Below, one piece after another: positions 15,864-21,264 of a stretch of 39,618 nucleotides of DNA. Every line of letters begins with the position of its first letter. The first letter of the stretch is position 1. This stretch comes from Oscillospiraceae bacterium (GTDB taxonomy: Bacteria; Bacillota; Clostridia; Oscillospirales; Acutalibacteraceae), in the NCBI GenBank assembly GCA_015066095.1, contig SVPC01000003.1, positions 65,407-105,024 of the forward strand. Direction: 5' to 3'. The notes beneath the pieces were generated by a model, which ran no database searches, was not told the origin of the DNA, and saw only the letters and a program-made list of their open reading frames with translations. Position numbers and translations under genes: made by a program.

Positions 15864-15881
15864 TTGTATATATGTATACAA
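15864..15881. promoter_or_regulatory. Palindromic operator, probable GntR/FCD binding site
   Basis: A perfect 7-bp inverted repeat TTGTATA / TATACAA with a 4-bp centre, lying between the -10 box and the ribosome site of the citrate operon and touching the last base of the -10. FCD-type GntR regulators commonly bind short AT-rich TTGTATACAA-like palindromes, and a GntR gene is second in this operon. A bound dimer here would block transcription initiation. Binding is inferred. Confidence 0.7.
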
Positions 15882-15908
15882 TTATACCATTAAAAATGCA
15901 AATGTCAA
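15881..15908 (-). promoter_or_regulatory. Sigma-A promoter of the citrate/isocitrate operon
   Basis: On the minus strand TTGACA (15903-15908) and TATAAT (15881-15886) are spaced by 16 bp. Predicted start is near 15874, inside the palindromic operator, giving a leader of about 20 nt that contains AAGGAG. Four genes follow, ending at the terminator at 10681-10732. Confidence 0.87.
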
Positions 15909-15968: not shown

Positions 15969-16502
15969 TTAAATTTGTAAAGTTTCTTGTGCACAATTAA
16001 GGTTTTCAGCATAATCGGTATTAAGGTTAATTAGACACTTTCCTACTTTTTGGGCATACTTAATTGTATTTTTAGTGCCCCCTGATTGACCATCAAACCA
16101 GCAGATAACATAATCGCTATTATCTACCATATATTTATTTCGTTGCATAAAACAACCTGCCGTATATTCATCATTAAGGCAAACGCTTTCGTCACAAGCA
16201 AATAATATGTCATAAAAACGGGTGCGCCAGTTAGCAGCAAAGCCAAATTCTTGTTGTTTATACGGTAGACAAGCAACCAAAATAATGTCCGGGTATATGT
16301 TTTTAAGTGACATCACACATTCGGCCGCCAAAATATCAAACCCTTGCGCCATACCCGTATAAAACACGCGACAACCATCGTTAATTAAAGAAACAATTGT
16401 CTTTTTAATTCGTGTCATTAAAATATCAAATTTGTCATTACCTTTTTTAAGGTCAAAATTAAACTTTTCGGGCCGATACCCTGTAAAACATACTTTTTTC
16501 AT
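15969..16502 (-). CDS. SLOG-superfamily (YpsA/DUF1273-like) nucleotide-binding protein, predicted SOS-controlled
   Basis: A 177-residue Rossmann-like protein of the SLOG superfamily, related to DprA and YpsA. Motifs: CFTGYRPEKF at the N terminus; the glycine loop YTGMAQGFDILAAE; PYKQQEFGFAANW; then CFMQRNKYMVDNSDYVICWFDG and GGTKNTIKYA near the C terminus. SLOG domains bind nucleotides or nucleic acids, and the exact role of YpsA-like members is unsettled. I place the start at 16502 (ATGAAAAAAG) rather than ATG at 16508, because the -10 box ends at 16509 and the transcription start should fall at about 16502. The transcript is then probably leaderless, with no Shine-Dalgarno. It stands alone, with its own promoter and terminator. 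A LexA-type box in the promoter suggests induction by DNA damage. Confidence 0.83.
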   Translation of the reverse strand: MKKVCFTGYRPEKFNFDLKKGNDKFDILMTRIKKTIVSLINDGCRVFYTGMAQGFDILAAECVMSLKNIYPDIILVACLPYKQQEFGFAANWRTRFYDILFACDESVCLNDEYTAGCFMQRNKYMVDNSDYVICWFDGQSGGTKNTIKYAQKVGKCLINLNTDYAENLNCAQETLQI

Positions 16503-16508
16503 AAGCAT

Positions 16509-16537
16509 ATTATACCGAACAAATGTTCATTTGTCAA
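16509..16537 (-). promoter_or_regulatory. Sigma-A promoter of the SLOG gene
   Basis: On the minus strand TTGACA (16532-16537) and TATAAT (16509-16514) are separated by 17 bp. Only 6 nt separate the -10 from the ATG at 16502, so the expected start coincides with that codon. The whole spacer is filled by a LexA-like palindrome. Confidence 0.87.
16516..16529. promoter_or_regulatory. LexA (SOS/Cheo) box between -35 and -10
   Basis: CGAACAAATGTTCA matches the Bacillus LexA consensus CGAACRNRYGTTCG at 13 of 14 positions and contains a perfect GAAC-N4-GTTC core, the form also reported for Clostridium difficile. Its place in the promoter spacer is the classic repressor position. LexA itself is not encoded in the window. 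Confidence 0.78.
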
Positions 16538-16626: not shown

Positions 16627-16660
16627 AACGGGGCAAGGAGAAAATTCTCCTTGCCCCGTT
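16627..16660 (-). terminator. Strong hairpin after the LRR gene
   Basis: A perfect 16-bp GC-rich stem (16627-16642 with 16645-16660) lies 7 nt beyond the LRR gene stop. On the minus strand it is followed by AAACATTAAT, not by a T-tract, so it is a poor textbook terminator in that direction. It may act as an mRNA 3'-end stabiliser or a terminator with a weak tract. Between it and the SLOG promoter (16538-16626) I see only a short imperfect repeat and no gene. Confidence 0.55.
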
Positions 16661-20589: not shown

Positions 20590-21264
20590 TTAATTCTCCT
20601 TTTTACTTAGCGTCCAAAAATACATATCCAAAAGTTTCATAAAAGGATAATCAGTAGTTGACTTTATAACTATAGATTTATGATTATTTATGTCTTTTAT
20701 TAAATTATGGTTAGCATTTAACCATTTAAGCAATGAATCAATTCTGTTAGAGAATTTTCCATTATTATTAATTCCATAAAGTTTCATACTTTTATGAACG
20801 TTAATATCATAAGCAGGAACGCACCCATATACGCCAAGCAGAATTTTAGTAATCAAAGTATCACTAGGTTTAATACCAAGTGAAACATAATATTTTTCAA
20901 TTGTGTTATAGGCTTCAACTATTACTTTGCGATATTCACAACAATCTGTAAGGGGGTTAAGTTTAAAAAGTTTTATATTGTTATTATTAAAAAGTTGCTC
21001 AGTTAATTTTTCGTGAACTAAATAATCAAACTCCTGCAATAATTTTGAAGAACCTCGATACATACCCCAGCTTGCAAGATATCCAACTAAATGTAAAGCT
21101 AAAATTTTAGAATTTGCGCTTTTATAGCCGACTTTATAAACACCTGCAAATGCATTGTAGCAGTCTTCCCAAGACTTAAAACGAGTAGAACTTGCTAGAC
21201 ACTCGTCTGCAAAGCATTTAAAAACTTTTTTCACTTTATATTGAGCAATTGGATATTTTTTCAT
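20590..21264 (-). CDS. Conserved protein of unknown function (WGMYRGSS motif)
   Basis: A 224-residue soluble, probably helical protein with no signal peptide or membrane span. I cannot assign a function. Two notable patches are [19 protein letters not shown] (about residues 57-76) and [12 protein letters not shown] (about 147-158). The first resembles a motif I recall from scattered uncharacterised bacterial proteins; this was not checked. The stop is 1 nt before the LRR gene, so the two are translated from one message. GGGAGA precedes the start. Upstream lies a roughly 217-nt leader with switch-like structure. A regulator, immunity factor or accessory protein for the secreted LRR partner are possibilities, none supported directly. 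Confidence 0.75.

Follow-up and report, generated by a model that had tools for sequence, protein, structure and literature searches.

In Firmicutes, the LexA/SOS regulon includes lexA, dinB and small division inhibitors, and the LexA consensus reads CGAACRNRYGTTYC. For YpsA of Bacillus subtilis, a protein of the SLOG type, a 2019 paper reports protection against peroxide and a block of division upon overproduction in B. subtilis and Staphylococcus aureus; in its main text "SOS" occurs twice and "LexA" does not occur (PMC6459960). Where the 2020 follow-up deals with the mechanism of YpsA, it calls it unclear and speculates that the protein binds DNA, NAD or ADP-ribose (PMC7376506). Here we describe a gene for a YpsA-type SLOG protein in a stretch of 39,618 nucleotides from an Oscillospiraceae bacterium, an uncultured gut member of the Clostridia (contig SVPC01000003.1 of assembly GCA_015066095.1, positions 65,407 to 105,024), which is referred to below as the window. 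The gene is like the Firmicutes regulon in that its operator has the same motif as the genome's own lexA and dinB, and unlike it in that the target is a YpsA-type SLOG gene and that recA is unboxed here. Unlike B. subtilis ypsA, it has a LexA-box promoter that is probably leaderless. We consider it likely that the gene is an SOS target of LexA and RecA, repressed by LexA and induced by damage, and that its leaderless mRNA encodes a nucleotide-binding effector that slows division or growth. The box, the promoter, the local LexA motif, the conservation and the predicted fold rest on sequence and comparison; repression, induction, the leaderless start and the biochemical role are what we infer from them.

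In a promoter scan, the SLOG promoter matched all 12 hexamer positions with a 17-nt spacer, and this spacer, read on the minus strand (16531-16515), is AATGAACATTTGTTCGG. The 14-mer CGAACAAATGTTCA lies within it on the plus strand (Table 1), and a script re-check found its GAAC-N4-GTTC core to be exact. The original prediction was of a box with a perfect core that fits the Firmicutes LexA consensus at 13 of 14 positions and sits between consensus -35 and -10 hexamers; direct reading bore out the core and the TTGACA-17 bp-TATAAT arrangement, and the 13 matches agree with the consensus given above. The range attached to that prediction, 16509..16537, contains the box and is that of the promoter plus the box. 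We scored LexA sites with a weight matrix set by hand from the sites at lexA, dinB and the small-membrane-protein open reading frame (ORF) described below, with the number of copies per site chosen by hand and the SLOG sites kept out; the matrix under-scores boxes that have G/C in their spacer (L303 scores 4.2 bits despite its exact core). By this measure, the SLOG box is the top LexA-like site of the 39.6-kb window at 18.4 bits, and the runner-up scores 10.2.

The source genome comprises 28 contigs and 1.32 Mb, at a completeness of 95.5%. Its single lexA gene has CGAATAAATGTTCG just before its start. Among the 30 lexA loci that we read, 19 were from the genus; 18 of these 19 closely match this site, and 12 have exactly CGAATAAATGTTCG. 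The core GAACN4GTTC is found at 8 places in the genome, and three of these 8 have GAACAAATGTTC: one before the SLOG gene, one before a dinB-like gene (whose box is GGAACAAATGTTCA) and one before an ORF for a 58-residue membrane protein. The SOS genes lexA and dinB do not, then, use a different LexA motif, and the predicted SLOG operator both matches the organism's own LexA sites and is placed to block the promoter, as expected of a member of the SOS regulon. The genome-wide search for the box at SOS genes succeeded at lexA, and also at dinB, and failed at recA, to which we return below.

We propose that in undamaged cells a LexA dimer on the box would cover the spacer between the -35 and -10 hexamers and exclude RNA polymerase. 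Upon damage, RecA filaments would trigger the self-cleavage of LexA, and the freed promoter, otherwise of consensus strength, would fire. The short, probably monocistronic and leaderless mRNA would yield the YpsA-type SLOG protein, a nucleotide-binding damage-response effector that would slow division or growth in the manner of overproduced YpsA in B. subtilis and S. aureus. By analogy, the SLOG protein is probably a damage-induced nucleotide-binding effector, and perhaps it has a checkpoint role.

We searched 119 related genomes, 103 of which had a SLOG match, and read 70 SLOG loci, of which 50 are the better matches of genomes from the genus. The box (at least 12.9 bits upstream) precedes 9 of these 50 genes (L008, which is the window gene, L016, L017, L018, L021, L022, L024, L033 and L105); one further boxed gene, L119, belongs to family f13. 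Eight of the nine boxed genus genes (7 aligned) have TTGAC.....AACA..TGTTCG.TATAAT in one register, and the boxed proteins that were aligned are 45-49% identical to the window SLOG protein. In the 70 loci together, the matrix gave 11 sites of 12.8 bits or more in 14,000 upstream positions versus 4 in 216,186 others (Fisher p 4.6e-11), and 10 boxed genes were seen versus a mean of 0.18 and a maximum of 2 in 100 Markov shuffles; by the stricter measure of an exact core, there were 3 upstream and 4 elsewhere. No site of 12.8 bits was reached in the 8 lower-scoring genus genes or in the 11 loci outside f1 and f13.

Of 394 genomes that sample the order, 194 had a strong YpsA/SLOG match. We scanned the 26 best non-genus loci (L262-L287), comprising 11 loci of f13, 2 of other f1 genera and 13 of further families; ten had a site of at least 11 bits, all of them in f13, and nothing above 9 bits was found in the promoter region of the 13 other-family loci or the 2 from f1. 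No core was seen upstream in L288 (plasmid), L289 or L290 (phage). In L284, from family f14, an exact GAAC-N4-GTTC core with a low matrix score lies 48 bases before the SLOG start; LexA control could extend to f14 as a third family.

For f13 itself, 87 genomes were searched, 63 had a match and 71 loci were read, L119 included (upstream DNA is nearly missing in L347 and limited to ~100 bases in L363). In the f13 genus g110, all 25 of the 25 genomes have the exact GAAC-N4-GTTC core, placed after the -10 box and ahead of the ribosome site, with flanks that have diverged; the box reads AGAACATTTGTTCT in 19 of them, and five other versions, all of which keep the core, account for the remaining 6. 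The nine lexA loci read from g110 all have box-like sites, CGAACGTATGTTCC in five. The box is also found in g73 (2/2 genes) and g16 (5/6), and four g64 genes have an imperfect site at the same place, which is unsure because no good site turned up in the two g64 lexA loci read, whose best scores were 8.5 and 5.8 bits. The 71 f13 loci contain 25 exact cores, all of them upstream of a SLOG gene in g110; in the remaining 146,674 bases there is none. A quick tree of 138 proteins (L339 dropped as too short; the imperfect g64 sites L264, L269 and L333 labelled boxed, and L303 unboxed) needs 12 changes of the box label versus 36.8 with shuffled labels, a difference that comes mainly from the f13 clade and is inflated by near relatives. 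Because a YihY-like gene is the upstream neighbor in 18 of 30 f13 loci, the SLOG gene there looks like a stable chromosomal locus. Judged by comparison, LexA control is well supported, patchy in the source genus and fixed in g110.

The names of the neighbors of the gene (nth, uvrC-like, dinB, homocitrate-synthase-like and YihY-like) come from inspecting translations, with no family search behind them. A homocitrate-synthase-like gene follows SLOG in the window and in L009-L011, L013, L014, L016 and L024 (L012 has no readable following gene). The box and the leaderless layout occur together in L008, L016 and L024; in L009-L014, SLOG lies 4-27 bp behind a gene with an endonuclease III (nth)-like C-terminus, and there is no box. 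A distant box that would serve the nth-like gene and SLOG jointly was rejected, as L009-L014 contain no site of at least 9 bits; the six best named loci, L137-L142, which are probably from the same genomes, gave at most 10.6 bits, ~2.2 kb before the gene. In L027 a uvrC-like gene comes after SLOG, and in L125 a dinB-like gene does so, and a perfect LexA box lies between SLOG and that gene. Each of the two arrangements, boxed or behind the nth-like gene, hints at a link with DNA damage, but no evident connection with repair is seen for most of the other neighbors.

The start codon is likely, though not certainly, the second ATG (16502) rather than the first, because the first (16508) would precede the predicted transcription start and because homologue alignments mostly leave out the first two residues (of 29, 23 start at residue 3 or beyond, 4 at residue 1 and 2 at residue 2). 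The SLOG mRNA is probably leaderless: its predicted first base is the A of this second ATG. The TATAAT-N6-ATG layout recurs in L016 and L024 although the N-termini differ, and a strict pattern scan of both strands of the window and 136 loci (970 kb, the window gene counted twice) found it before a frame of at least 40 residues only in these two and the window gene. It is not general, because in the remaining boxed genus genes the promoter lies 37-59 bases from the assigned start.

As far as the sequence tells, the SLOG gene stands alone, as originally predicted: behind it lies a hairpin with a U-run, and a separate promoter serves the gene that comes next. A stricter terminator pattern scan did not list this hairpin. 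The box most likely serves the SLOG gene alone; that it serves another gene is unlikely, given that the SLOG ORF begins at the promoter and that the downstream gene is separately provided for. Read-through from the upstream BspA-like gene may occur, because the hairpin that separates it from the SLOG promoter lacks a U-run when read in this direction. The minus strand also has an ORF of 224 residues (20590-21264) directly upstream of the BspA-like repeat protein; this ORF gave no Pfam match above cut-off.

Table 1. Features of the SLOG locus, in window coordinates
Feature	Position	Strand	Basis or remark
-35 hexamer TTGACA	16532..16537	-	sequence read and promoter scan
LexA (SOS) box CGAACAAATGTTCA, predicted	16516..16529	.	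inside the 17-bp promoter spacer 16515-16531; motif also at lexA and dinB
-10 hexamer TATAAT	16509..16514	-	sequence read and promoter scan
Probable start codon and predicted transcription start (A of ATG, 16502)	16500..16502	-	TATAAT-N6-ATG; start choice inferred
YpsA-type SLOG protein, 177 aa (179 aa from first ATG, 16508)	15969..16502	-	
Terminator-like hairpin and U-run right after the SLOG stop codon	15924..15966	-	-20.2 kcal/mol, z -3.7
Strong 15-pair hairpin between the upstream BspA-like gene and the SLOG promoter	16627..16660	.	lacks a U-run when read along these genes
Separate promoter TTGACA-16-TATAAT of the next downstream gene (homocitrate-synthase-like, by inspection)	15881..15908	-	promoter scan

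The window protein has the YpsA fold by prediction, and it matches the PF06908 (YpsA) profile (80.2 bits versus a cut-off of 27.7, residues 6-152). With the NF010181 YpsA equivalog model it scored 53.2 bits versus the 165 needed, and it is therefore a YpsA relative and not that equivalog. In a structural alignment, it is 22% identical to B. subtilis YpsA (PF06908; PDB 2NX2). It consists of a single Rossmann-like domain with conserved GMAxGFD and GGTxNT, the kind of stretches that bind nucleotides in this superfamily, and nucleotide binding is predicted as probable. By our own reading of the alignment, two residues of the predicted nucleotide site that were mutated in YpsA have counterparts here: G53 is kept as G54 and E55 is replaced by D56 in all 8 aligned rows.

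The original prediction had called the protein YpsA/DprA-like; the first half of this description stands, and the second is right at the level of the fold only, the PF02481 (DprA) profile giving 17.2 bits versus a cut-off of 29.6. An SOS-controlled SLOG protein might act on DNA, as a DprA-like single-stranded-DNA-binding or repair accessory factor, and not as an effector of division or signaling. We regard this alternative as unlikely, though it is the strongest of the three that we weighed.

It is less probable still that the gene is an SOS-controlled accessory defense or conflict gene, whose product would sense a nucleotide signal and be induced by damage that phages or plasmids cause. The SLOG domains of ThsA (Thoeris) have the same fold, one of them solved with 3'cADPR; the ShosA profile matches residues 110-177, a partial match, with an E value of 5e-8; and 84 phage and 45 plasmid records contain relatives. 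However, the locus is chromosomal, lies among metabolic genes and is common to several species, and the f13 locus appears stable. Unlike ThsA, the window protein has no effector domain and is a single-domain protein encoded alone, and unlike ShosA, it has no evident effector partner among the neighboring ORFs (a ShosT-like partner was looked for by eye, with no ShosT scan). The last alternative, that the box is a chance match or binds a different repressor and that damage does not induce the gene, fits the lack of a box in most genus homologues but is very improbable, as lexA's own site is one base off the core, two of the three exact 12-mer copies stand before dinB and the small-membrane-protein ORF, the core is kept throughout g110 despite the diverged flanks, and a chance match was rejected on the genome-wide motif counts, the matrix scores in the window and the core counts in the loci.

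Several observations weigh against the view that the SLOG gene is an SOS target whose product slows division or growth. The recA gene of the source genome has no box: its best upstream site, at 8.3 bits, lies inside the preceding coding region and was rejected as an operator. Because of this the regulon is unusual, and SOS control here may leave recA out. Conservation before orthologues, on which the original prediction depended, held for 9 of 50 genus genes (8 of the 9 in one register) and for 25 of 25 genomes in a genus of another family, and failed for 41 of 50, the six best-scoring homologues (L009-L014) among them. On a 69-protein tree (L123 was omitted for its broken frame), the box needs 9 changes versus a shuffled mean of 9.5, and is thus unclustered; because this is no fewer than with shuffled labels, the box appears to be often gained or lost within the genus. 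In f13, it is absent from all 8 g121 genes with readable upstream DNA (the ninth, L347, has almost none) and from the 13 genes read in other genera. Second SLOG genes are no better provided, with an exact core in 0 of 9 in g110 (L357 has an 11.8-bit site without the core) and a box in 0 of 3 in g16, one of which has only ~100 bases upstream. SOS control of every YpsA homologue was rejected as a general rule, the box being absent in many of the families and loci scanned. E55 of YpsA is replaced by D here, and we know of no account of B. subtilis ypsA as an SOS gene. Finally, among candidates for an SOS division inhibitor, the 58-residue membrane protein is more typical than the SLOG protein. 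The recA gene itself lies at 83884-84669 of the source genome's contig C21, closely behind another coding region.

The ORF for the 58-residue protein (~4984-5160 of L001, contig C9 of the source genome) has one hydrophobic segment, as judged by eye. In this contig and in L070-L096, an ORF of 56-79 residues with an N-terminal hydrophobic segment and a basic tail lies directly behind a perfect LexA box. Such a small membrane ORF is present in 21 of 30 loci, which were picked by the box, so this is no measure of box conservation. The plan resembles that of YneA and SosA, and the ORF is a candidate SOS-induced division inhibitor.

In related genomes, a structured, apparently non-coding transcript lies behind a strong promoter with a LexA box in its spacer (TTGACA-box-TATAAT). 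It was seen in L222, L229, L231, L233 and L244 of a first set and in L253-L257; none of these loci is in the window. With stricter filters, a covariance model placed the RNA in 8 of 70 genus genomes, at 10 loci, and the source genome had no match. Five of the loci were found through the box and five by the model alone; of the latter, one keeps the core exactly and in the same position, three keep it there with one mismatch and one lacks it. No Rfam family scored above its gathering score at the transcript in the 8 loci searched. The transcript is a candidate SOS-induced RNA.

In the open PMC library, with subscription papers and preprints outside its scope, we found no paper linking LexA with YpsA or SLOG and none joining an SOS box with DprA-like proteins or LexA binding with Ruminococcaceae; for LexA and leaderless mRNA, none of the matches listed was relevant. 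A single paper uses the words LexA and SLOG together, on an unrelated subject, and YpsA appears with DNA damage in two, the YpsA paper and one on pneumococcal diversity. We put forward, tentatively and as a proposal that is more doubtful than the SOS control of the window gene, that in this order of gut Clostridia YpsA-type SLOG genes are a recurrent and so far unrecognized SOS arm, placed under LexA in two or more families through operators that differ in their promoter position, leaderless in part of the genus, and encoding a damage-induced nucleotide sensor or enzyme that would serve as a growth or division checkpoint. If true, the leaderless SLOG mRNA might still be translated in cells that initiate poorly on normal leaders. 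The YpsA/SLOG family is widespread, and the 2020 account of its best-studied member gives the mechanism as unknown (PMC7376506). Sequence alone gives few clues to function, and the regulator of a gene is among them; LexA control in two families would tie the YpsA/SLOG family to DNA damage and make its role and its ligand testable questions.
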